Origin: Thermaerobacter sp. FW80
GTDB taxonomy: Bacteria; Bacillota; Sulfobacillia; Thermaerobacterales; Thermaerobacteraceae
NCBI RefSeq assembly: GCF_004634385.1
Contig: NZ_CP037895.1
Location: forward strand, 1,339,245 to 1,403,244
DNA length: 64,000 nt
Direction: 5' to 3'
The position numbers and the translations under genes were made by a program. This document shows positions 7,558 through 33,699 of this stretch, in pieces. Numbering within the stretch: position 1 is the first letter of the stretch; every line of letters starts with the position of its first letter. The notes under the pieces are model-generated. The model did no database searches and was not told the DNA's origin. It worked only from the letters and a program-made list of their open reading frames with translations.

Positions 7558-10500
7558 ATGGACGCCGATCGCCAGCAACAGGTAGCCGGGTCGCCGGGCG
7601 CGACTTGGTCAGGAGGAACCTGGCCCCGGCCGGTGGCCGGGGGGTCGAAGACCCCGCCGGCGGGGCAGGAGGGCAGTACGGCCGGCGGGCGTCGGGGAGG
7701 GACGGGGCGCTCCCAGGGACGGGGTAGCGGTGTCCCATCCCGCCCCCAGGACCTGCTGGCGCCCGACCCGGAGCATCTCGAAGACAAACTGGTCCTGATC
7801 GACGGCCACAGCCTGATGTACCGGGCCTTCTTCGCCCTGCCACCCCTGGCCACGGCCGACGGCCTGCCGACCAACGCGGTGTACGGCTTCCTCACCATGC
7901 TGCTGCGCCTGCTGGAGGAGGAGCGACCCCGCTACCTGGCCGTCGCCTTCGACCGCGGCCTGCCGACCTTCCGCGTGGAGCGGTACCCCGACTACAAGGG
8001 ACACCGCCCGGAGACGCCGGACGACCTGCGGAGCCAGTTCCCGATCCTCAAGGACGTGCTGGCCGCCATGGGCGTCCCCATGGTGGAGCACGACGGCTTC
8101 GAGGCCGACGACCTGCTGGGCACCCTGGCCCGTCGGGCCCGGGCGGCCGGGGTACCCAGGGTGTTGCTGGTCACCGGCGACCGGGACGTGCTGCAGCTGC
8201 TGGACGAGGGTATCGAGGTGCTGCTGACCCGGCGGGGGATCAGCGACGTCCAGCGCTACGACCGCCGGCGCATCCGCCAGGAGATGGGGATCGAGCCCGC
8301 CCAGTACCTGGACGTCAAGGCGCTGATGGGCGACGCCTCGGACAACATCCCCGGGGTGCCGGGGATCGGCGAGAAGACGGCGCTCAAGCTGATCCAGCGC
8401 CTGGGCGACCTGGAGTCCGTGCTGGCCAACCCCGAGGAGGCGGGCGGCAAGAAGCTGCCGGCTGCCTTGCGCGAATACGCCGATCAGGCGCGCATGAGCC
8501 GGGAGCTGGCCCGCATCCGCACCGACGCCCCGGTGGACTTCGACCCCGAGCGCTGGATCCGCCGGCCGGCCGATCCCGGCGTGCTGCGCCCGCTGCTCAT
8601 GCGGCTGGAGTTCCGCAGCCTGGTGGAGCGGCTGGGGCTGACGGCGCCGGCGGCCGGCGGAATCCAGGGCGCCCCGCGCCACCAGGCCGGGGGACCGCCC
8701 AGGGGGGCACCCCGCGACGGGGATCGGGCCGGCCCGTCCGGGGCCAGGGCCGGTGCGGACCCGCGCCGTGCAGGCGACGACGGGGCGAGAGGCGGACGGG
8801 GTGCGACGGACGAACCGGCTTCCGCCCGCGGCCCCGAGGCGGGGACGCCCACCGGGCTCGCCGGAGCCGACGGGCTCGCCCCCGGCACCGCGGACGCGGG
8901 CGCCGGCTGGCCGGGCGCGGTGGAGGAGCTGACCGCGGAGGCGGTGGCGTCCTGGCTGGACGCGGCGGCGGGGGCCGATGCCGGCGCGGCGCCCGAGGAC
9001 GCCGACCCGGCAACCGAGCCGGTTGCGCCGGCGGTGGGGCAGCGGTTCGCCGTCGCCGTCGTGGCGTCGTGGGAGGGGGAGGGGGACGAGCCCCGGGGTG
9101 GAGCCGGGGCCGTCCTGGCCGGCCTCGGCCTGGCGGCGGGGGGGCGGGCCGCGGCGTGGACGGCTGGGTCCACCGCAGGTGATGGCGCGGGCGCCCGGCC
9201 TGGTGCGGCGGGCCGGACCGCTCCGCCGGGGGCCGGCGCCGGCTCCGCGGACGATCCCTCCCCCGCGGCGGCAGGCGTCCGCGGCGACGCGGGAGGCGCC
9301 GGGACCGCCGGTCCCGGCGTGCAGGCGGTGCTGCGCGCCCTGCGCGGCCGGCCGCTGGCCGGGTTCGACCTCAAGCCGCTGTACCGGCTTCTGCTGCGCC
9401 AGGCGACCGGGGAGCGAGCCCCCGCGCCCTCGGGAGCGGCCAGGGGCGACGGCGCGGGATCGGCCTCGGGCCAGGCGCTCCTGCCGCCGCCGGTGGCCGA
9501 CCTCAAGCTGGCTGCGTACCTGCTCGACCCGGTGCGCAACCGTTACCACCTCGTGGACACCGCCCGGCAGTTCTTCGGCTGGGACCTGGAGGAGGGGCCC
9601 GCCGACCGTCCCGCCGACCCGGCCTGCCGCACCGTGGCGCTCTTGGGACGCGACGCCGCCCTCTGCGCCCGGCTGCGCCCCGCGGTGGAGGCGGAGATCG
9701 CCGCCCGCGGCCTGGAGCGGGTGTATCGCGAGATCGAGCTGCCGCTGGTGCCGGTGTTGGCCGCCATGGAGGAGGCCGGCATCGCGGTGGACCGCCGCCA
9801 GCTGGAGGAGCTGGGCCGGCTCTTCACCCGGCGCAGCCAGGAGCTGGCCGAGCAGATCTACGAGCTGGCGGGCGAGCGCTTCAACATCAACTCCACCCAG
9901 CAGCTGGGGCAGATCCTGTTCGAACGCCTGGGCCTGCCGGTGGTGAAGAAGACCAAGACCGGCTTCTCCACCGACGCCGAGGTGCTCGAGACCCTGGCGG
10001 CCAAGCACCCCATCGCCGAGCTGGTGCTGGAGTACCGGTCCCTGGTCAAGCTGCAGGGCACCTACGTGGACGGGCTGGCGGAGCACATCGGCCCCGACGG
10101 TCGCATCCACACCACCTTCCAGCAGACGGTGGCGGCGACGGGCCGGCTCTCCAGCACCCAGCCCAATCTGCAGAACATCCCGATCCGGGACGAACCCGGC
10201 CGCTCCCTGCGGCGCGCCTTCGTGGCGCCGCCGGGCCACCGCCTGGTGGCGGCCGACTACTCGCAGATCGAGCTGCGGGTGCTGGCCCACTACAGCGGCG
10301 ACCCCGGGCTGCTGGAGGCCTTCGCCCGCGGGCAGGACGTCCACGCCCGCACGGCCAGCGAGATCTTCGGCGTACCCCTGGAGCGGGTCACGCCCGAGCA
10401 GCGGCGGGTGGCCAAGGCGGTGAACTTCGGCCTGGCCTACGGGCAGACGGACTTCGGCCTGGCCCGCGCCCTGCGCATCGACCGGGCCGACGCCCGGCGC

Positions 10501-10947
10501 TTCATCGATCGCTACTTCGAGCGCTACCCCGGGGTCAAGCGCTACATGGAGGAGACCGTCCGACGCGCCCGCCAGGAGGGCGAGGTGAGCACCCTGCTGG
10601 GCCGGCGCCGACCGGTGCCGGAGATCCGCCACCGCGTCTACCACATCCGCCAGAACGCCGAGCGGGTGGCGATCAACACGCCGATCCAGGGGACCGCCGC
10701 CGACATCATGAAGCTGGCGATGATCCGGGTGTACCGGGCGCTGGCCGAGGAGGGGCTGCGGGCACGGATCGTCCTGCAGGTCCACGACGAGCTCCTGCTC
10801 GAGGCGCCGGAGGACGAGGTGCCCGCCGTGGCCGCCCTGCTGCGGCGGGAGATGGAGGGTGCCTTCACCCTGGCGGTGCCGCTGGTGGTGGAGGTCAAGG
10901 CCGGCGCCAACTGGTACGAGATGGAGGCCGTCGACGCCGGTGCCTGA
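7558..10947 (+). CDS. polA: DNA polymerase I
   Basis: 1129 residues; the ATG at 7558 follows GGAGGGGG. The first 70 residues are an unusual disordered Gly/Arg-rich extension. The 5'-3' nuclease domain begins at about residue 78 (LVLIDGHSLMYRAF) and includes FEADDLLGTLA and GVPGIGEKTALKLI. Residues about 363-580 are a Gly/Ala-rich insertion in the region where proofreading exonuclease would begin; the exonuclease acidic residues are not recognisable, so proofreading is probably absent, as in Taq-type enzymes. The polymerase domain (about 720-1129) has motif A DYSQIELRVLAHYSGD, motif B RRVAKAVNFGLAYGQT and motif C VHDELLLE. The family length is 850-900 residues, so the excess is all in low-complexity inserts. 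It acts in Okazaki processing and repair. mutM overlaps its end by 8 bases. Confidence 0.97.
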   Translation: MDADRQQQVAGSPGATWSGGTWPRPVAGGSKTPPAGQEGSTAGGRRGGTGRSQGRGSGVPSRPQDLLAPDPEHLEDKLVLIDGHSLMYRAFFALPPLATADGLPTNAVYGFLTMLLRLLEEERPRYLAVAFDRGLPTFRVERYPDYKGHRPETPDDLRSQFPILKDVLAAMGVPMVEHDGFEADDLLGTLARRARAAGVPRVLLVTGDRDVLQLLDEGIEVLLTRRGISDVQRYDRRRIRQEMGIEPAQYLDVKALMGDASDNIPGVPGIGEKTALKLIQRLGDLESVLANPEEAGGKKLPAALREYADQARMSRELARIRTDAPVDFDPERWIRRPADPGVLRPLLMRLEFRSLVERLGLTAPAAGGIQGAPRHQAGGPPRGAPRDGDRAGPSGARAGADPRRAGDDGARGGRGATDEPASARGPEAGTPTGLAGADGLAPGTADAGAGWPGAVEELTAEAVASWLDAAAGADAGAAPEDADPATEPVAPAVGQRFAVAVVASWEGEGDEPRGGAGAVLAGLGLAAGGRAAAWTAGSTAGDGAGARPGAAGRTAPPGAGAGSADDPSPAAAGVRGDAGGAGTAGPGVQAVLRALRGRPLAGFDLKPLYRLLLRQATGERAPAPSGAARGDGAGSASGQALLPPPVADLKLAAYLLDPVRNRYHLVDTARQFFGWDLEEGPADRPADPACRTVALLGRDAALCARLRPAVEAEIAARGLERVYREIELPLVPVLAAMEEAGIAVDRRQLEELGRLFTRRSQELAEQIYELAGERFNINSTQQLGQILFERLGLPVVKKTKTGFSTDAEVLETLAAKHPIAELVLEYRSLVKLQGTYVDGLAEHIGPDGRIHTTFQQTVAATGRLSSTQPNLQNIPIRDEPGRSLRRAFVAPPGHRLVAADYSQIELRVLAHYSGDPGLLEAFARGQDVHARTASEIFGVPLERVTPEQRRVAKAVNFGLAYGQTDFGLARALRIDRADARRFIDRYFERYPGVKRYMEETVRRARQEGEVSTLLGRRRPVPEIRHRVYHIRQNAERVAINTPIQGTAADIMKLAMIRVYRALAEEGLRARIVLQVHDELLLEAPEDEVPAVAALLRREMEGAFTLAVPLVVEVKAGANWYEMEAVDAGA

Positions 10948-12250
10948 GCTGCCCGAGGTGGAGACCATCCGCCGCGATCTGGAGCGCCACCTGCGGGGGG
11001 CGCGGGTCGCGGGGGTGCGGGTCCTGCGCCCCGAGGTGGTGGTGGGGGCGTCGCCGGCGGAGTTCGACCGCCTCCTCCGCGGGGGCCGGTTCCTCCGGTT
11101 CGCGCGCCGCGGCAAGTACCTGCTCTTCGAGGTGGAGGTCCCCGACGAAGCGGCCGCCGCGGCGCTCCGCCGGGGCCGAGGGGCCCGCCAGGGCCGAGCG
11201 GGCTCAGGGGCGGCGGACGCCGCCCTGCACGGCACGCCCTCGGTTGCGTCCGCGAAGGGATGCGTTCCCGGGGGGCGCGAGCCGGCGGCATCGGCTCCCC
11301 TCGGCGCGGCGCGGCGGCCGCGGCGGCGGTGGCTGGCGATCCACCTGCGCATGACCGGCCGGCTCACCCTGGCGCGCCGCCACGAGCCCCTGCCGCCCCA
11401 CACCCACGTGGTGTGGGAGCTGGCCGACGCCGGGCCGTGGGAGGAGCTGCGCCTCTCCGACCCGCGGCGCTTCGGCCGGGTGTACCTGCTGGGGCGGAGC
11501 CCCCTGGGCCGGGGGCCCGGGCTGAGGCCCGGCGACGGCGCCCGCCGTCAGCGCGATGCCGGGATGCCGCCGACGGCTCGCAGCGCGGGTGCCGGCGCCC
11601 GCAGCCTCCAGGCTGCGGGCGGCGACCCGGGCCGGCCGGACCCCACGCCGCCGGAGCGGCGCGGCGACCCGGACCAGCCGGGCCCCAGGCCGCCGGAGTG
11701 GCGCGGCGACCCCGGCCGACCGGACCCCATACCACCGGGGCTGCGCAGCCTGGGGCCCGAACCCCTGGGCCGCCGCTTCACGGCCTCGGAGCTGGCCCGG
11801 CGGCTGGCCGGGCGGCGGGCGCCCATCAAGGCCGTGCTCCTGGACCAGCGGGTGGTGGCCGGCCTCGGGAACATCTACGCCGACGAGGCCCTCTTCCGCG
11901 CCCGTCTGCACCCGGCCCATCCCGCGGGGAGCCTGTCGCCGACCGCCTTGCGCCGGCTGGTGCGGGCGGTCCGCCGCGTCCTCCGCGAGGCCCTGGCCGC
12001 CGGCGGCACGACCTTCTCCGACTACCGCGACGGCCTTGGGCGCCGCGGGCGCTTCGCTGAGCGCCTGGCCGTCTACGGCCGCGCGGGCGAGCCCTGTCCC
12101 CGGTGCGGCACGCCGATCGCCGCCCTGCCCCTGGCCGGGCGCACCGCTCACTTCTGCCCCCGTTGCCAACCCCCGCCCGACGCCGCCGGCGGCGAGGTCG
12201 GCCGGGGCGCGGCCTGCCCTCGCCGGGGTGCCGGCCCTCTCGCCCGCTAG
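10940..12250 (+). CDS. mutM: Formamidopyrimidine-DNA glycosylase (Fpg/MutM)
   Basis: 436 residues against the usual 270-290. The GTG at 10940 is the start because the mature enzyme needs proline as its second residue (PELPEVETIRRDL), the catalytic nucleophile, with the glutamates that follow. It overlaps polA by 8 bases, so the two are co-translated. The helix-two-turn-helix is at about residues 292-318 (IKAVLLDQRVVAGLGNIYADE) in slightly divergent form, and the zinc finger at the end is CPRC-x16-CPRC. Two low-complexity insertions, at about 74-130 and 192-268, explain the extra length; the second contains a 14-residue tandem repeat. The product removes 8-oxoguanine and cuts the abasic site. 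All catalytic landmarks are present. Confidence 0.95.
   Translation: MPELPEVETIRRDLERHLRGARVAGVRVLRPEVVVGASPAEFDRLLRGGRFLRFARRGKYLLFEVEVPDEAAAAALRRGRGARQGRAGSGAADAALHGTPSVASAKGCVPGGREPAASAPLGAARRPRRRWLAIHLRMTGRLTLARRHEPLPPHTHVVWELADAGPWEELRLSDPRRFGRVYLLGRSPLGRGPGLRPGDGARRQRDAGMPPTARSAGAGARSLQAAGGDPGRPDPTPPERRGDPDQPGPRPPEWRGDPGRPDPIPPGLRSLGPEPLGRRFTASELARRLAGRRAPIKAVLLDQRVVAGLGNIYADEALFRARLHPAHPAGSLSPTALRRLVRAVRRVLREALAAGGTTFSDYRDGLGRRGRFAERLAVYGRAGEPCPRCGTPIAALPLAGRTAHFCPRCQPPPDAAGGEVGRGAACPRRGAGPLAR
11621..11746 (+). repeat. 42-bp tandem repeat inside mutM, three copies
   Basis: Copies start at 11621, 11663 and 11705, each opening with GGCGACCC. They encode a 14-residue Pro/Arg/Asp-rich unit (GDPGRPDPTPPERR-like) in frame, so copy changes would keep mutM open. 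Confidence 0.8.
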
Positions 12251-12663
12251 GCGTCGTCTTCGCGGCGATCCCGCGGGCGCCGGCTGGGGCCGGGACGCGT
12301 CGGCGAGGCGGCGCCGCCGGGGGACGGGGCGGCGGGACCGCCCGCCCCGGGGGCGGGCCGCGTGGCCTGCGGGGCCCCGTAGGCCGTGGCGTCGGGTTCC
12401 GGACCGCCGATGTCCGCCGTCACCCGCAGTCCGGGGACCTCGAATTCCACCTGGGGACGCACGCCGATGGCCCGGGCCTGGGCGTCGGCCAGTTCCTCCA
12501 GCTCGTCGATCCAGCGGTCGTCGTCGGTGAAGGAGGACGGGGCGCCGGAGGTCACGGGTCGATCGGGCGCCGGGGCGCCGGGTTCGGGACGAACCCGGCC
12601 CCTGACCGGCGGCCTCCCGGTCCCCTCCTCGGTCGCGTCAGGTCGCCCATCGCGCGGCGACAT
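12247..12663 (-). CDS. Hypothetical small acidic-core protein
   Basis: 138 residues from the ATG at 12663, which has GAGGAG 8 bases upstream; a longer frame upstream has no ribosome site. Its 3' end overlaps the mutM stop region by 4 bases, convergently. The middle looks like real protein: SSFTDDDRWIDELEELADAQ, then IGVRPQVEFEVPGLRVTAD, flanked by disordered Pro/Arg/Gly-rich ends. No signal peptide, membrane segment or family is recognised. Confidence 0.5.
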   Translation of the reverse strand: MSPRDGRPDATEEGTGRPPVRGRVRPEPGAPAPDRPVTSGAPSSFTDDDRWIDELEELADAQARAIGVRPQVEFEVPGLRVTADIGGPEPDATAYGAPQATRPAPGAGGPAAPSPGGAASPTRPGPSRRPRDRREDDA

Positions 12664-12750
12664 GGCCCTCGCTCCTCTGCCGGGCCCGGAGTGGGCGGAA
12701 GGACCCGGCTCCTGTAGCGTGGCCACCCCGGCGGCCGAGCAACCGTGGAC

Positions 12751-12788
12751 GCGAGGGGGCGGGGAGCCGCAGCTCCCCGCCCCCTCGC
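12751..12788. terminator. 17-bp perfect hairpin without U-tract
   Basis: 12751-12767 pairs with 12772-12788 around a CGCA tetraloop. No T-run follows on either strand, so it may be a Rho-type or U-less terminator, or another structured element. Confidence 0.4.
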
Positions 12789-12994
12789 GGGCAGCACCCG
12801 ATGCCGTGGCCCGGCGGCGGCCGATGCCATGGCCGGCGCGGCGCCGACGGCGCGCCGCGCACCCCATCCCAAGCCGTGCGCCCCATCGCGGGCCGTTCCC
12901 AGCGCCCCCGGCCGCATCCCGGCCGTCCCAGGGCCGGCGGCCATCATGCCGGGGCGACGCCCGGCGGCCGGCCCGTCATGCGCCGTGGGGCAAG

Positions 12995-13027
12995 GGCGAT
13001 CCGCCGGCAGCGCGCCGGCGGATCGCC
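12995..13027 (-). terminator. 14-bp hairpin downstream of sleB copy 1
   Basis: 12995-13008 pairs perfectly with 13014-13027 (loop of 5). It lies about 110 bases past the stop of the minus-strand sleB-like gene; no U-tract is present. Confidence 0.4.
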
Positions 13028-13137
13028 TCACCCCTCACCGCAGCGGGGCACCGCCGCAGGCGGCGCCGGGGACCGCCCGCTCCGCGGCGCCGGGCCCTCG
13101 CGCCCACCCCGCGCCGCACCGGGGTCCCGCCGCCGGC

Positions 13138-25994: not shown

Positions 25995-26538
25995 CCGTCG
26001 ACGGATGGCGGCCCTGCCGGTGCCGCGCGGCGGCCGGCGGGGCCGTCGTCGTGCCTTCCCTCCTGCGGTGGGGGCGGCGTGGGAGGCTGCGCCTCGCCGC
26101 GCCGTGCGGGGCGCGTCGTGGGGCTGGGGTTCTCGAGCAGGCCGCGGTGCCGCCGGACCGAGGGATGGGCGTCGCAGGATCTGGCCGTGTTCCGCTCTAA
26201 ATACAGCAATGGGGAGCGGATTCCGTCGTCGGGCGGTGCAGCTGGGCGCTTCCCGCACGGCGGAGGCATGGCGCCCGGGCGGCCCGCCGGCGCCCTGCGC
26301 AGCGGCGCATGCGGCGCCGACGCGTCGGGGGCCGGCGGCGGGCGTTCCCCGCAGACCGCGGGGCCGGCGGCGGGCATTCCTCGGGGGGGCCAGGTGGGCC
26401 GGTGCGTCCCGCCGGTTCGTCCCGGCCGGAGTCGGCGGTGGCCCTTGCCGGCCGGCGCAGGTGCCGCGGTCCGAGGAGCCGGCCGAAGCGGTGCCCGTCG
26501 GAGGAGGACGTCCAACGCCCGTTGAGGGAGGGGAGATC
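25995..26538 (+). other. 544-bp leader/intergenic stretch before acsA
   Basis: No gene is supported, although the GC bias leaves frames open. A direct repeat of GGCCGGCGGCGGGCRTTCC (about 26330 and 26361) and an AT-poor-to-AT-rich step near 26195-26210 (CTCTAAATACAGCAATG) are seen. No riboswitch or clear promoter is recognised. Confidence 0.5.
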
Positions 26539-28503
26539 ATGGCGGCCGACGGTGGACGGCCCATCGACGCCTTGCTCAAGGAAGAGCGGCGGTTCGCACC
26601 GCCGGAGGCCTTCCGCGCCCGCGCCCACGTGAAGGACGAGTCGGTGTACGAGGAGGCCGAGCGGGATCCCGAGGCGTACTGGGCGCGGTGGGCGGAGGAG
26701 CTCGAGTGGTTCCGCAAGTGGGACAAGGTGCTGGAGTGGAACCCGCCCCATGCCAAGTGGTTCCTGGGCGGCAAGCTGAATGCCAGCGTCAACTGCGTCG
26801 ATCGGCACATCCGCGGGCCGCGGCGGAACAAGGCGGCCATCATCTGGGAGGGCGAGCCGGGCGACACGCGCACGTTGACCTACTTCGACCTCTACCGGGA
26901 GGTCAACAAGTTCGCCAACGTCCTGAAGAGCCTGGGGGTGAAGAAGGGCGATCGGGTGACCCTCTACCTGCCGATGATCCCGGAGCTGCCCATCGCCATG
27001 CTGGCCTGCGCCCGCATCGGCGCGCCGCACTCGGTGGTCTTCGCCGGCTTCAGCCCGCAGGCCCTGGCCTCGCGCATGGAGGACGCCGGCTCGCGGTTCC
27101 TCGTCACGTGTGACGGGTACTACCGCCGGGGTAAGGTGGTGCCCCTCAAGGCCCAGGCCGACGAGGCCCTGCGGCTGCTGGCGGGCAAGCAGGACGTGGA
27201 GGCCGTGGTGGTGGTGCGCCGCACGGGGGACGAGGTGCCCTTCACCCCGGGCCGGGACCGCTGGTGGCACGAGCTGATGGACCAGGCCGAGCGGCTGTGC
27301 CCGCCCGAGGTCATGGACGCCGAGGACATGCTCTTCATGATGTACACCTCCGGGACCACCGGCCGGCCCAAGGGCATCGTCCACACCACGGGCGGGTACC
27401 TGACCGGCGTGTACGCCACCACCAAGTGGGTCTTCGACCTGCACGAGGACGACGTCTACTGGTGCATGGCCGACATCGGCTGGATCACCGGCCACTCCTA
27501 CATCGTGTACGGCCCGCTGGCCAACGGCGCCACAGTGGTGATGTACGAGGGGGCGCCCGATTGGCCGGACAAGGACCGGCCCTGGGTGATCGTCGAGAAG
27601 TACGGCGTGACCATCTTCTACACGGCGCCCACAGCGATCCGCGCCTTCGCCGCCGACGGCCCCGAGTACCCCCGGCGGCACGACCTCTCCAGCCTGCGCC
27701 TGCTGGGCAGCGTGGGCGAGCCCATCAACCCCGAGGCGTGGATGTGGTATCACGAGCACATCGGCGGTGGCCGCTGCCCCATCGTGGACACCTGGTGGCA
27801 GACGGAGACGGGCGCCATCATGATCACGCCGCTGCCCGGCGTGACGGTCACCAAGCCCGGCAGCGCCACCCGGCCCTTCCCGGGGATCAAGGCGGCGGTG
27901 CTGGACGACCAGGGCAACCCGGTGCCGCCGGGGCAGGGCGGCGGCTACCTGGCCATCCTGCGGCCGTGGCCGTCCATGCTGCGGGGCATCTGGGGCGACG
28001 AGGAGCGCTACGTGAACACGTACTGGTCCAAGTGGGGTCGCGACATCTACTACCCGGGGGACGGCGCCAAGGTCGACGAGGACGGCTACTTCTGGGTCCT
28101 GGGCCGCGTGGACGACGTGATGAACGTCGCCGGTCACCGGCTCAGCACGATGGAGATCGAGAGCGCCCTGGTCTCCCACCCCGCGGTGGCCGAGGCGGCG
28201 GTGATCGCCGCGCCCCACGAGCTCAAGGGCCAGGTGCCGGTGGCGTTCGTGATCCTGGAGGCGGGCCGCCAGGGGAGCCCCGAGCTCGAGGCGGAGCTCA
28301 AGGAGCACGTGGCCAAGGTGATCAGCCCCATCGCCCGCCCCGACCGGGTGCTCTTCGTGCCCGACCTGCCCAGGACCCGCAGCGGCAAGATCATGCGGCG
28401 CCTCTTGCGGGACATCGTGGAGGGTCGGGAGCTGGGCGACACCACCACCCTGCGCGATCCCGAGGTGCCCGAGCAGCTGCGGCGGATGTACGCGGCCCGT
28501 TAG
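26539..28503 (+). CDS. acsA: Acetyl-CoA synthetase (AMP-forming)
   Basis: 654 residues; the ATG at 26539 follows GAGGGAGGGGAG. The sequence runs through the family landmarks: [18 protein letters not shown], the ATP loop [74 protein letters not shown], and the C-terminal ERSGKIMRR-type motif [12 protein letters not shown], whose lysine is the usual acetylation switch. It activates acetate to acetyl-CoA through acetyl-AMP in the cytoplasm. The preceding MFS gene may move acetate or another small acid. A U-less GC-rich hairpin at 28634 probably ends the transcript. Length and motifs are complete. Confidence 0.97.
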
Positions 28504-28662: not shown

Positions 28663-28896
28663 TGCCTTCGATGCCCGCGGGCCGGAGCCAGGGCGGACGG
28701 GCGCCCGGCGCGGAGGAGCGAAGCGGGGGCGGTCGAGGCGGGGACGGTGTCGCACGCCTTTGCGGTGACGTAACGCGAACGTGCCGCGTTCGCGATGGGG
28801 GGAGGCTGCGGTGTCACCCGCCATCGTCGGTGTGACGGCGTGTGCCATGGCGCACGGTGGAGCGGATCACCCTGGTGGAAAACGTCAAAGACGGTT

Positions 28897-28902
28897 TACA
28901 AT
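28897..28902 (+). promoter_or_regulatory. Candidate -10 box before the composite regulator gene
   Basis: TACAAT in an AT-rich stretch, 170 bases before the start codon; the -35 hexamer is not clear. Confidence 0.3.
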
Positions 28903-28945
28903 CGAATGCGATTGATTGACGCGATCCTGCCCGGTTTCGCCAACG

Positions 28946-28975
28946 TTCGACAAGTCTGCCAAGACTCTTGTCGAA
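28946..28975 (+). repeat. Inverted repeat in regulator leader
   Basis: TTCGACAAG (28946-28954) pairs with CTTGTCGAA (28967-28975), and inner TCT/AGA extends the stem across a 2-base bulge with a GCCA loop. It can be a protein-binding palindrome or an RNA hairpin between promoter and start. Confidence 0.55.
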
Positions 28976-29070
28976 ATTCGGGTGCGACCGGGCCGACCAC
29001 CCAGGCACCGACCCGGGTTGGCACCTCCCTCCCGCGCCATCGGGTCGGGACCCATTGCGGAGGGGAGAGG

Positions 29071-32000
29071 ATGGAACGGTCCCCCGAGGCATCGGCCCCG
29101 GCGTCGTCCCCCGCGGCGAGGGGCGGCGGGTCGCCGGAGGCGGCTGCGGAGGCTGCGGCCGCGAGCCCTGGGGCGGCCCCCGAGGCCGGCGGTCCGACGA
29201 TCCCCGCGCTAGAGCTCGCGGATGCCGCTGCGGCCGAGTCCCCGAACCGCGCCGGCGTGGCGGCGCGGCCCGCGGACGCGGCGACCTCCCGTTCCGCCGA
29301 CGGCGGTGCGGGGCGCGACGCCGGCTCCGCCGCGGGGGGCGGTCCCGACCGAGCGCGCATGGCCGCTCCCCCCGTCTGCACCTCCTTGGCCGCCATCCCG
29401 CTGAGCCTGCTCGAGATCCCGCCCCGCGTCCGCGCGGCCCTGCAGCAGCGGGGCTACGAGACGGTGGGGGACCTGGCGGATCGGGCGGACCCCCGTCTGG
29501 TGGCCGCCCGGGGGATGGGGACCCGGGGGCTGCTGGCGCTGGCCACGGAGCTGGCGCGGGTGATGGCCGACCCGGCCTATCAGCGGCAGCTCCTGGCCCG
29601 GGTGGGTCGTTATGACCCGGAGCGGTTCCCGGAGGCGGCGCGCCGCCGGTCCATCGAGGATCTGGGCCTCAGCCAGCGGGCCTACCGGGCCCTGCGTCGG
29701 TCCGGCATCCAGACCATCGGCCAGCTGCTGGAGCTGGGCGAGGCGGGGCTGCGCCGGCTCCGGGGCCTCGGCCCCCGTTCCCTGGCCGAGATCTGCCAGC
29801 GCCTCGACGCCCTGCAGTCCGGCCGTCCGCTGCCACCCCCGGGGGGTGCCGGGGATCCACTGGCCCCGGACCTGATGGACGATCCGGCCCCCCTCGCCGT
29901 CCTGCTGCTGCCGCGGCGGGTGGCGACCGCCTTGCAGCGCGCCGGTCTGGACACCGTTGGCGCCGTGGCCGGCTTCTCCCAGGAGGGGCTGCGGCGCCTG
30001 CGGGGGCTGGGGGAGAGCGGGGTGACCGCGATCCTGGAGGCCCTGGGCCGGTACCGGGAGGAGTGCAGCCGGGGGGAGGCGGGTCCCCGGGCGCTGGAGG
30101 ACTGGCTGCGCGAGCTGGTGGAGCCGCTGGCCGACCGGGAGCGGGAGGTCCTGGTGCTGCGCTATGGCCTCCTGGGGGCCGAACCCCACGACCTGAGTGC
30201 CATCGCCGCCCGCTGGCAGACCACGCGGCAATGGGTCAGCGTCGTGCAGGGGCGTGCCCTGCGCCGGCTGCGGGCCCGCGCCCGGCTGGAGCGGTTCCGG
30301 CCGCTGGTGACGGCGGTGCGGGCGGCCGCCGCGCGCTGCGGGGCGGCGGGCACGGCGGAGCTGGTCGAGGCCCTGCGGCGGGGCGGTGCGGTGACGCTGC
30401 CCGCGGCCGGCGAGCAGGCGGTGCGCCTGGTGAGCCTCACGGTGCAGGTCGTGCCCGGACTCCGGCGCACCGCCCGGTCCACGTGGACGACGGTGGAGAT
30501 CGCCCAGCGTCTGCCCGAGGCGGCCAGGGTGCTGGAGGCATACCTGGAGGAGCGGGGACGGCCGGCCAGCCTGGCGGATCTGGCCGCCCACCTGGCCGAG
30601 CGGATGGACGACCTGCCCGCCGATGCGGAGGCCATGGCCAAGGCGGTGGTCACGACGCAGGAGGCGTTCATCCGCTATCCCGGGGGCCTCTACGGGCTGG
30701 CCGCGTGGCGGGGAGGGCGGCGGGTCCGGGCGCGGGACTACCTGGTTCGCGCCCTGGAGCGTCACGGCCGGCCGCTGCACTACACCGAGCTGACCCGGCT
30801 CGTCAACGACCTCCTGCCGGAAGGGCGCAAGATGCCGCCGACCCACGTGTTGACCATCCTCTCCTCAGGCGAGCCCTTCCGGCGCTTCGACCGGGGGATC
30901 TACGGCCTGAGCCATTGGCAGCGACAGCCCGAGCACGGCGTGACCCAGCTCTGCCGCGATGCGCTGGCCGCCTGCGGCGAGCCGGTCACGCTGGACCAGG
31001 TGGTCGAAGCCGTGCAGCGGCGGCACCGCTTTCCGCGGCGCACCGTGGCCCGCGTCCTGAACGAAGACCCGGCCGTGGTGCGATACGGCCGCGACCGCTT
31101 CGGCCTTGGGGCCTGGCTGGCCGTCGATCCTCGCGCCGCCGGCACCGTCCGCGCCCCCCTCTTCGGCCCGCGGCCGACCAACCTGGCCGCAGTGCGGGGC
31201 CTGCTGGCGGAACTGCTGGCGGGCCACGTCTACGACACGGCCCAGCTGACGGCGTACCTGGGGCGCTGGCGGCAGCGATCCCAGGCCCGGTCGACCATCG
31301 CCTACCTGGAGGCGATGGGCTGGCTGACGGGCGTGGATGACACCTGGACGGCCACGCCCCTCAACGACGTGTGGGTGCGGGCCGGGACCGAGGCGGCGCA
31401 GCTGACGGCGCTGGCCCTGGCCGATCCCGGCTTCGCCCACGCGCTGGTGCTCCACGAAGCCTTCCGTCGCCTGGCGGAGGGCCAGCCGGACGGCGGTGCG
31501 GGGGGCGGGCTCCCGGCGGCGGGGCAGGGCGGCGGGACGCCCATCCTGACGGCCGAACTGGCGACGCGCTGGTTGGCCGAGCGCGTGCGCCGGGCCGCGG
31601 CGGCTCGGGGCGAGACCGAGGGGCCCGCGTTCCTCCTGCGCCTGCGGCGGCAGTGGCTGGTGACCGGCTGGTTCGACCCGTGGCTGGCGCCGCTGCTGGC
31701 CGGACGGGCAGACGCCGCTGGAGCCGACGCCGTGGCCGACCCGGGGCCGGCCGAGGGGGCGGCGACCGGCGACGGCGCCGCCTCGGGACGGGATGCCCTC
31801 CCGGTTGCGGGTGCCGGGACGACCGCCTCGGCACCCGCGGGCGAGGCGCCCGGCGCCGAGCCGCCCGGGGCTGCGGAGGGGGGTGCCGGCACGACGACGG
31901 CTCCGGCTGGGGGGACCCCGGACGCCGGCGCTGCCACCGGGGACGAACCGGCCGCCCGCACCGGCCCCACCCGGGTGCGCAGCAGCACGGCCCGCCAGCG

Positions 32001-32502
32001 CCTCTGGGACCTGGCGGCCCGGCACCTCTGGCCCTGGCAGCCGGTGCACGTCCCGGCGGCCTGGCTCCCCTCCCCGGCGACGGCGTGGGCGGTGCTGGCC
32101 GACGCCGTCGCGTCGGGACGGGGAAGGGCGGTGGACCTCGAGGCGCTGCTGGAATGGTGCCGCTCCCAGGACCTCGCGGCCGACGCGGCGAAGGTGGAGG
32201 GAGAGCTCTTCGGGTTGGGGCTGTGGCCCGCGCTGGAGGGGACTCGCCTGCGCCTCTACATGCCGTACCGGCTCGTGGTGCCGCCGGCGGGCCTGCGCCT
32301 GCCGGGCCTCCCGGATGGCGAGGAGCCCCTGGCGGCGGCCGCGGCGATCCTGGAGCGGGCCGGCGTGTTCACCGCCCTGCCCGCCCGATGGCCTTCGCCG
32401 CCGGTGGCCGCGGTGTACAGGGTGCCGCCCCTGGGCGGGGCAGGAGGCGCGGAGGCGGCCGCCCACGGCGAGGGTGGCAGACTCGGAACGGGCGCCCGCT
32501 GA
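29071..32502 (+). CDS. Large composite transcription-type protein: alpha-CTD-like, sigma4-like and HARE-HTH-like repeats
   Basis: 1143 residues; ATG at 29071 after GGAGGGGAG. Residues 1-100 are disordered. Three helix-hairpin-helix units like the RNA polymerase alpha C-terminal domain follow: about 106-168 (YETVGDLADRADPRLVAARG), 194-250 (IEDLGLSQRAYRALRRSGIQ then LRRLRGLGPRSLAEI) and 271-330 (LDTVGAVAGFSQEGLRRLRG). At about 350-405 is a sigma region-4-like HTH (LADREREVLVLRYGLLG, IAARWQTTRQWVSVVQGRAL). Next come three HARE-HTH-like winged helices, about 474-550, 554-620 (RHGRPLHYTELTRLVNDLLP, FRRFDRGIYGLSHW) and 625-690 (YGRDRFGLGAWL), the fold of the polymerase delta subunit. The C-terminal 450 residues are helical with Ala/Gly-rich linkers and unassigned. 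Probably cytoplasmic, binding DNA or RNA polymerase. No restriction or other partner is adjacent. Function unknown. Confidence 0.85.
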   Translation: MERSPEASAPASSPAARGGGSPEAAAEAAAASPGAAPEAGGPTIPALELADAAAAESPNRAGVAARPADAATSRSADGGAGRDAGSAAGGGPDRARMAAPPVCTSLAAIPLSLLEIPPRVRAALQQRGYETVGDLADRADPRLVAARGMGTRGLLALATELARVMADPAYQRQLLARVGRYDPERFPEAARRRSIEDLGLSQRAYRALRRSGIQTIGQLLELGEAGLRRLRGLGPRSLAEICQRLDALQSGRPLPPPGGAGDPLAPDLMDDPAPLAVLLLPRRVATALQRAGLDTVGAVAGFSQEGLRRLRGLGESGVTAILEALGRYREECSRGEAGPRALEDWLRELVEPLADREREVLVLRYGLLGAEPHDLSAIAARWQTTRQWVSVVQGRALRRLRARARLERFRPLVTAVRAAAARCGAAGTAELVEALRRGGAVTLPAAGEQAVRLVSLTVQVVPGLRRTARSTWTTVEIAQRLPEAARVLEAYLEERGRPASLADLAAHLAERMDDLPADAEAMAKAVVTTQEAFIRYPGGLYGLAAWRGGRRVRARDYLVRALERHGRPLHYTELTRLVNDLLPEGRKMPPTHVLTILSSGEPFRRFDRGIYGLSHWQRQPEHGVTQLCRDALAACGEPVTLDQVVEAVQRRHRFPRRTVARVLNEDPAVVRYGRDRFGLGAWLAVDPRAAGTVRAPLFGPRPTNLAAVRGLLAELLAGHVYDTAQLTAYLGRWRQRSQARSTIAYLEAMGWLTGVDDTWTATPLNDVWVRAGTEAAQLTALALADPGFAHALVLHEAFRRLAEGQPDGGAGGGLPAAGQGGGTPILTAELATRWLAERVRRAAAARGETEGPAFLLRLRRQWLVTGWFDPWLAPLLAGRADAAGADAVADPGPAEGAATGDGAASGRDALPVAGAGTTASAPAGEAPGAEPPGAAEGGAGTTTAPAGGTPDAGAATGDEPAARTGPTRVRSSTARQRLWDLAARHLWPWQPVHVPAAWLPSPATAWAVLADAVASGRGRAVDLEALLEWCRSQDLAADAAKVEGELFGLGLWPALEGTRLRLYMPYRLVVPPAGLRLPGLPDGEEPLAAAAAILERAGVFTALPARWPSPPVAAVYRVPPLGGAGGAEAAAHGEGGRLGTGAR

Positions 32503-32541: not shown

Positions 32542-33699
32542 ATGGACATCCGGGACGGGCGAGCCGGCGGGCTGCCGGCGCCCGGAGCGGACGACGAGGG
32601 CATCGGCGCGGCAGCCGACGGGGCGACGCTGCGCCGGCATGACCCGGCGGGGATGCTGGGCGTGGTCGCCGCCTTCCCCCACCAGTTGGAAGAGGCCTAC
32701 CGCCTGGGCCGCGAGGCGGCCAACCTGCCGCGACTTCTGGCGGAGCCGCCCCGGGCCGTGGTCGTCGCAGGACTGGGCGGCTCCGCCATCGGCGGCGACT
32801 TCGTGGCGGCCGTGGTGGAGCCCCAGGCCACGGTGCCGGTGGTGGTCCACCGCGACTACGGTCTTCCCGGCTGGGTCGGCGCGCGCGACCTGGTGTTCAC
32901 CGTCAGCTACTCCGGGGCGACGGAGGAGACGCTGAGCGCCTACGCGGAGGCGCGCCGGCGAGGGGCGGCGGTGGTGGCCGTCGCCAGCGGCGGGCCCCTC
33001 CTGGAGCGGGCGGCGGCCGACGAGGCCGCCGGCGCTCCGGTACGGCGCGTCGTCGTGCCCGGGGGGCTGGCGCCGCGGGCGGCGCTGGGGTACCTGATGC
33101 TGCCCGTGCTGTATCTGACGTGCGCGTGGACCGGCCTCGATGATCCGTCCGCCCAGGTGGAGGAGGCCATCGCCGTCCTGCGCAGCCAGGCGCGGGAGGT
33201 CGAGCCCAACGGCCCCGGCGGGCCGGTCCAGGCGCTGGCCCGGGCGTTGTTGGACCGCCCCGTGTTCGTCTACGGGGCCGGCCGCCTCGGCCAGGCCGCC
33301 GCCTACCGGTGGCAGTGCCAGCTCAACGAGAACGCCAAGCTCCTCGCCCACAGCCATGCCTTCCCCGAGCTGGACCACAACGAGGTCATGGGCTGGGAAG
33401 GCGCGGCCGAAGGGGGTCGCCGGCCGCTGGTGGTCCTGCTCCAGGCGGCGGCCGATCACCCGCGGAACCGGGCGCGGATGGACATCACCGCCGATCTGAT
33501 CGGCGATCGGGCCGAGTGGGTGACGGTCGCGTCGCGGGGACAGGGGCGCTTGGCGCAGCTGCTCAGCCTGGCCTACGTCGGCGACGCGGTGTCCGTGTAC
33601 GCGGCCTTGCTGCGGGGCCTGGACCCGTCGGCCATCGCCAGCATCCAGCGGCTGAAGGAGCGGCTGGCGGCCCTGCCCGCCCCGGGGATGGAACGCTAG
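32542..33699 (+). CDS. SIS-domain bifunctional phosphoglucose/phosphomannose isomerase
   Basis: 385 residues, 39 bases after the previous gene, with GAGGGAGGG upstream. The double SIS fold shows VVVAGLGGSAIGGDFVAAV, VFTVSYSGATEETLSAYAEA, YGAGRLGQAAAYRWQCQLNE, then ENAKLLAHSHAFPELDHNEVMGW read in two parts (NENAKLLAHSHAFPE, LDHNEVMGWEG), which is the signature of the crenarchaeal-type PGI/PMI family also found in Firmicutes and Actinobacteria. It interconverts glucose-6-P and fructose-6-P, and mannose-6-P with fructose-6-P. It would connect glycolysis with the aldolase and GlpX encoded at 56-58 kb. Family membership is firm; substrate breadth is inferred. Confidence 0.9.
   Translation: MDIRDGRAGGLPAPGADDEGIGAAADGATLRRHDPAGMLGVVAAFPHQLEEAYRLGREAANLPRLLAEPPRAVVVAGLGGSAIGGDFVAAVVEPQATVPVVVHRDYGLPGWVGARDLVFTVSYSGATEETLSAYAEARRRGAAVVAVASGGPLLERAAADEAAGAPVRRVVVPGGLAPRAALGYLMLPVLYLTCAWTGLDDPSAQVEEAIAVLRSQAREVEPNGPGGPVQALARALLDRPVFVYGAGRLGQAAAYRWQCQLNENAKLLAHSHAFPELDHNEVMGWEGAAEGGRRPLVVLLQAAADHPRNRARMDITADLIGDRAEWVTVASRGQGRLAQLLSLAYVGDAVSVYAALLRGLDPSAIASIQRLKERLAALPAPGMER

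Follow-up and report, generated by a model that had tools for sequence, protein, structure and literature searches.

The open reading frame at positions 29071-32502 (+) of a 64,000-nucleotide stretch of Thermaerobacter sp. FW80 DNA (hereafter the window), which lies within a 3.04-Mb genome, encodes a protein of 1143 amino acids (aa) in which three copies of the C-terminal domain of the RNA polymerase alpha subunit (alpha-CTD), one helix-turn-helix like that of sigma region 4 (sigma4) and a series of winged helices of the HARE-HTH type are joined in a single chain. We infer from these sequence modules, with moderate confidence, that the protein is a chromosomal and apparently non-enzymatic regulator that would bind promoter-type DNA at several sites; its DNA binding, its targets and the sign of regulation are all predicted in this way. 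The protein belongs to an unnamed family. The individual modules are already known, as is the alpha-CTD/sigma4/winged-helix stretch as a part of the BREX type 2 kinase PglW. Neither Pfam nor NCBIfam holds a family that covers the whole protein. The first-pass annotation of this DNA, which was made from sequence alone, had stated that no characterised protein with this order of modules was known. Our literature searches indeed retrieved no functional study of the family, although an earlier mention of the architecture may exist in the HARE-HTH literature; the order itself, however, is not unique, as full-length collinear homologues occur in two Firmicutes clades.

Architecture of the protein

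The coordinates and the start of the gene given in the first-pass annotation proved correct. The ATG at 29071 is preceded by the ribosome-binding site GGAGGGG (29059-29065), and in an alignment with three sister Thermaerobacter species both the start and this site were kept in all four genomes. All window features described below lie on the + strand.

Pfam detected RNA_pol_A_CTD in three stretches of the protein above the curated cut-off (E = 2.2e-25), and a hidden Markov model (HMM) built from the RpoA CTDs of the class likewise gave three units, at residues 112-165, 195-249 and 277-328, in agreement with the three alpha-CTD-like units noticed earlier. Unit 1 (residues 112-165, 29404-29565; HMM E = 1.1e-5) retains the equivalents of R265 and G296; in G001 the HMM segment of this unit begins late, and the arginine equivalent to R265 was seen in the alignment of the sister genomes. 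Unit 2 (residues 191-249, 29641-29817; HMM E = 6.6e-21), which is also detected by Pfam, is the best conserved: it retains the equivalents of R265, G296, S299 and E302, with K298 replaced by arginine, and its predicted structure matched the alpha-CTD structure 1z3e with a Z-score of 11.5 and a root-mean-square deviation of 1.2 over 64 residues. Unit 3 occupies residues 277-328 (29899-30054; HMM E = 1.2e-8). In 15 homologues the complete alpha-CTD units all keep the R265 and G296 equivalents, and many of them also keep those of N268, K/R298 and S299. In the alpha subunit, R265 touches the minor groove of the UP element (PMC3828302). The protein thus has the fold and the R265/G296 DNA-contact residues in common with the alpha CTD (PF03118), but differs from RpoA in carrying three tandem CTD copies in one chain and no N-terminal domain of the alpha subunit (alpha-NTD). 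Identity as RpoA was rejected, because the alpha-NTD, which serves dimerisation and assembly, was not found by Pfam; moreover, NCBIfam RpoA models matched the protein through the CTD only, and the genome encodes its own RpoA.

The single sigma4-like module reported in the first-pass annotation was recovered as well. Sigma70_r4 matched residues 353-402 at E = 4e-8 (33.1 bits against a Pfam cut-off of 24.1), and in a phmmer search the segment aligned without gaps with region 4 of a Thermus sigma factor (3n97_A; E = 1.1e-7). The module spans residues 342-412 (30094-30306) and contains an altered recognition helix, TRQWVSVVQ. It has the helix-turn-helix layout of the sigma-70 family region 4 (PF04545), but the protein, in contrast to sigma-70 factors, has no region 2. 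Pfam searches at E-values up to 10 found no region 2 (sigma2), alpha-NTD, kinase, nuclease or other enzyme domain in the protein, and identity as a sigma factor was rejected on the absence of region 2, the part that binds core and recognises the -10 element.

Between sigma4 and residue 685 lie four winged helices, at residues 413-474 (30307-30492), 484-548 (30520-30714; HARE-like, ending in YPGGLYGLAAW), 553-617 (30727-30921) and 622-685 (30934-31125), all of them collinear with units of the homologues. The third is the clearest HARE-HTH (PLHYTEL...RFDRGIYGLSHW). Its Pfam match in the window protein (E = 0.0036, 18.1 bits) falls under the cut-off of 25.9 bits, whereas the HARE-HTH matches of the homologues L104, L106, L108 and L111 exceed it, and the winged-helix assignment is supported by these collinear homologues. 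Three delta-like winged helices had been proposed at first; their number up to residue 685 is four. Such winged helices, with the signature LHYxEL...RGIYGLxxW, are common to the protein and to the RNA polymerase delta subunit (PF05066). In contrast to delta, the protein has four of them in tandem, each under the Pfam cut-off, and its C-terminus is rich in Ala, Gly and Pro rather than in D/E, unlike the acidic disordered tail of delta. Identity as the delta subunit was rejected, since the acidic tail is missing.

The remaining approximately 450 residues, regarded at first as unassigned, in fact open with a fifth winged helix (residues 703-780, 31177-31410) and hold a further conserved segment near residues 971-1080. 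The fifth winged helix shows the predicted secondary-structure order HHHEE and a ratio of nonsynonymous to synonymous substitution rates (dN/dS) of 0.13-0.23 in the genus, and its model, which is of low confidence, matched MarR-type structures with Z-scores of up to 8.7. Comparison with PDB structures covered mainly this domain and alpha-CTD unit 2. A helical segment (residues 781-880) and a poorly conserved linker rich in Ala, Gly and Pro (residues 881-970), whose predicted local distance difference test (pLDDT) values are below 50, follow at 31411-31980. The conserved C-terminal alpha/beta domain (residues 971-1080, 31981-32310) is winged-helix-like, with pLDDT 55-91 over most of its length and dN/dS 0.26-0.33 in the genus, and probably represents a sixth winged helix; a C-terminal tail and the stop codon complete the gene (32311-32502). 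Across the alpha-CTDs, sigma4, the winged helices and the C-terminal domain, dN/dS within the genus was 0.13-0.33, indicating purifying selection on the modules. The low-complexity N-terminal tail (residues 1-104, 29071-29382) evolves fast, with an identity of 22-39% and dN/dS of 0.7-0.8 in the genus.

Collinear homologues and defence-linked relatives

The protein is carried by all four Thermaerobacter genomes and by one sister genus, that is, by five of the five genomes of the family, with an identity of 70-74% within the genus and of 63% over residues 109-704 to the sister genus. No other full-length copy was found among 154 genomes of the class, where scoring was confined to a few top candidates in each genome; the phylum sample below was scored in the same way, and the distribution counts are lower bounds. 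In a sample of 398 genomes of the phylum, relatives of about 540-645 aa were present in two Firmicutes clades, f55 and f99. In both clades the alpha-CTD and sigma4 matches exceed their Pfam cut-offs, and in f99 the HARE-HTH matches do so too. In hhalign comparisons the Thermaerobacter profile matched that of f55 at 99.8% over 483 columns (E = 4.1e-28) and that of f99 at 98.7% over 530 columns (E = 1.6e-16), and both alignments run through alpha-CTD, sigma4 and the winged helices in one order. Copy numbers vary around this order: three alpha-CTDs, sigma4, four winged helices, the fifth winged helix and the C-terminal domain in Thermaerobacter; four alpha-CTDs, sigma4 and three winged helices in the f55 proteins of about 580 aa; and two alpha-CTDs (one in G278), sigma4 and four winged helices in f99, most of whose members have a degenerate extra unit. 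The gene was present in five of five genomes of the f55 class and in five of five of the family f99, and was not found in the eight other genomes of the f99 class.

Two further proteins resemble parts of this array. A 437-aa protein from the same class (L176:267-1580, -) has three alpha-CTD units and matches a PglW profile at 2.8e-15, with no sigma4 or HARE match, and a 638-aa protein (L166:178-2094, -) is weakly similar to the winged-helix array and has a long, coiled-coil-like C-terminal half.

A close known counterpart of the array is the C-terminal half of PglW, which shares with the window protein the succession of alpha-CTD, a sigma4-like stretch and winged helices. The matches of PglW models to the window protein (E = 9.9e-14) start no earlier than about model position 790, and residues 234-408 of the homologue L102 match PglW 805-994 at E = 2.6e-14 in one stretch spanning alpha-CTD and sigma4; it is this alpha-CTD-to-sigma4 stretch through which the PADLOC and NCBIfam PglW profiles match the homologues. 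The accessible part of a 2026 BREX survey describes an alpha-CTD plus three winged helix-turn-helix domains in PglW and does not mention sigma4 there (PMC12839542). PglW differs in that it carries a NERD nuclease, two or more kinases in tandem and an iSTAND at its C-terminus. The window protein shows none of these enzyme domains, has three alpha-CTDs and comes from a genome with no PglZ match. PglZ was found neither in the five Thermaerobacteraceae (G000-G004) nor in the five f55 genomes. Identity as PglW or another BREX component was rejected: Pfam found no NERD nuclease or Ser/Thr kinase, PglZ is missing and the neighbouring genes are metabolic.

Other relatives stand in or beside defence operons. 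In L174 a 1135-aa alpha-CTD-sigma4 protein (9638-13045, -) is encoded directly upstream of PbeA and PbeC; none of the PADLOC Pbe models matches it, and it may be an unlisted Pbe component. A 1051-aa sigma4-HARE protein heads a BrxP/SspB/SspC/PglZ-like cluster in L109 (1930-5085) and in L175. On an Abditibacteriota plasmid (L071:26-5092) a sigma4-HARE protein is followed by a DrmMI-like/type IIG methylase; its gene is annotated as rpoD, a label that looks wrong, as Pfam finds no region 2. The match of MzaA, a large defence-linked protein of the MZA anti-phage system, to the window protein is limited to the sigma4 stretch. No copy of the full architecture was present in the viral, phage and plasmid collections searched, where two viral matches are confined to the sigma4 stretch and the plasmid match is a partial sigma4-HARE relative. 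A phage or plasmid origin was rejected, as phages, plasmids and viral contigs gave no full match.

Possible function

The reading towards which we lean is regulation of transcription initiation. The three alpha-CTD units would grip A/T-type minor grooves via their R265-type arginines, the sigma4 helix-turn-helix would read, with changed specificity, the major groove of a site next to these, and the winged helices would add DNA contacts or contact RNA polymerase, so that the protein could occupy promoter-type DNA and regulate initiation as a repressor, silencer or architectural factor. A regulator of initiation is preferred to a subunit of the holoenzyme because the parts that join the core, alpha-NTD and sigma2, are missing. 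The promoter- or polymerase-related role suggested in the first-pass annotation is still the best guess, given that the module assignment holds, but mimicry of normal -35 recognition is unlikely. The residues of the sigma4 recognition helix read the -35 element. TRERIRQIE of Thermus is replaced by TRQWVSVVQ, and for this reason the sigma/alpha/delta mimic that had also been proposed would hardly read the -35 element normally in this genus; the Thermaerobacter protein probably reads something other than -35-like DNA. The f55 proteins, with SRERIRQIE or SRERVRQIE, could still read -35-like DNA, and the corresponding helix in f99 is TRARIQQI.

Several points weigh against such a regulator. The sigma4 recognition helix has lost its -35-reading residues, with one invariant replacement in all five Thermaerobacteraceae, the winged helices may contact protein instead of DNA, a sensing role is possible given the cousins in defence operons, and the predicted structures have modest confidence values (mean pLDDT 66 and 53). 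The sensing role leads to a minority possibility, namely that the protein is a domesticated or stand-alone sensor or regulator of anti-phage or restriction origin, whose alpha-CTD-sigma4-HARE block would recognise foreign or modified DNA and signal to, or repress, a distant effector. The C-terminal half of PglW, the profiles of which match L102 and the window protein, may do likewise, relatives adjoin PbeA/PbeC, BrxP/SspB/SspC/PglZ and the DrmMI-like methylase, and HARE-HTH has been proposed as a reader of modified DNA (PMC11037411). However, no defence gene was found beside the gene in Thermaerobacter, f55 or f99, PglZ is missing from the genomes named above, and the gene is fixed within its clades, with no full-architecture copy in the mobile-element collections.

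Sigma4 and delta-type domains contact polymerase in known systems, and we regard it as quite doubtful that the protein is an RNA polymerase accessory factor, in which sigma4 would dock on the beta flap while the HARE modules bind core as delta does, so as to bridge or remodel polymerase at promoters. In f1, f55 and f99 the HARE-HTH matches lay in this protein or were absent, and no delta-like HARE-HTH protein separate from it was detected, but the absence of delta is uninformative, because HARE-HTH matches are likewise lacking in G138 and G139, genomes of the order that do not carry the protein; in addition, the window protein has no core-joining domain. It is highly improbable that the resemblance of the modules to known domains is due to chance or is an artefact arising from an open frame rich in GC. 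The genome is high in GC with many spurious overlapping frames, and HARE-HTH alone stays under its cut-off; nevertheless, two modules (alpha-CTD and sigma4) pass curated cut-offs, the start and ribosome-binding site are conserved, module dN/dS is well below 1, and full-length collinear homologues in low-GC genomes already contradict this explanation.

If the preferred promoter-type DNA-binding regulator is correct, the promoter-reading domains of polymerase have been reused in a free-standing protein, and this reuse would be connected both with the DNA-binding half of PglW, of which little is understood, and with the relatives encoded in phosphorothioate-linked defence operons. A broader idea, which we consider doubtful, is that DNA readers derived from polymerase and arranged in tandem (an alpha-CTD array, sigma4 and a HARE array) form one cassette of an unrecognised protein class, serving transcription or genome guarding, that is common to fixed chromosomal regulators and to anti-phage systems (BREX-2 PglW, Ssp/BREX-4-like, Pbe), with recognition of promoter-type DNA as the shared sensing principle. 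The small stand-alone f55 homologues would offer a tractable model for the recognition target of the cassette.

Neighbouring genes and upstream region

The gene is preceded, after a gap of about 570 bp, by an acetyl-CoA synthetase gene (26533-28503, start approximate; Pfam AMP-binding, 3.2e-96) and followed 39 bp downstream by a gene for a bacterial phosphoglucose isomerase-type protein (32542-33699; bact-PGI_C, 1e-46), with which it is possibly co-transcribed. In f55 the genes for FeoB and NifU stand before the homologue and those for a DUF4855 protein and a DNA polymerase III alpha subunit after it; in f99 QueG stands before it and a histidine kinase and MarR after it, with MatE and a glutamate-racemase-type gene nearby. 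The search for homologues of the same architecture and for their neighbourhoods, which the first-pass annotation had recommended, led to f55 and f99, and in all three groups the loci look like stable chromosomal housekeeping loci.

An upstream block conserved in the alignment of the four Thermaerobacter species (28868-28975), which is relatively AT-rich with a local GC content of 48-58%, contains the promoter-like TGGAAA-N15-TACAAT (28876-28902), while no sigma-70 promoter in the upstream region passed the consensus scan. The palindrome CAATCGaatgCGATTG (CAATCGn4CGATTG; 28899-28914) and the inverted repeat TTCGACA...TGTCGAA (28946-28975) have a single occurrence each in the window and none in 100 shuffles, and TTCGACA-N5-TGTCGAA is also found upstream of the gene in the sister genus. 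The palindrome-bearing conserved block suggests that the gene itself may be regulated. The repeat resembles inverted copies of TGTCGAA, which we take to be the Spo0A box. Thermaerobacter composti is reported to be spore-forming in the accessible part of one publication (PMC11008173). A Spo0A link of the repeat is a lead only.

TGTCGAA occurs nine times in the window (6390, 28946, 28969, 35541, 37674, 43332, 49521, 57422 and 61067) against 1.83 expected from dinucleotide shuffles, 0 of 100 of which reached nine; this excess may reflect a possible regulon or an effect of codon usage.

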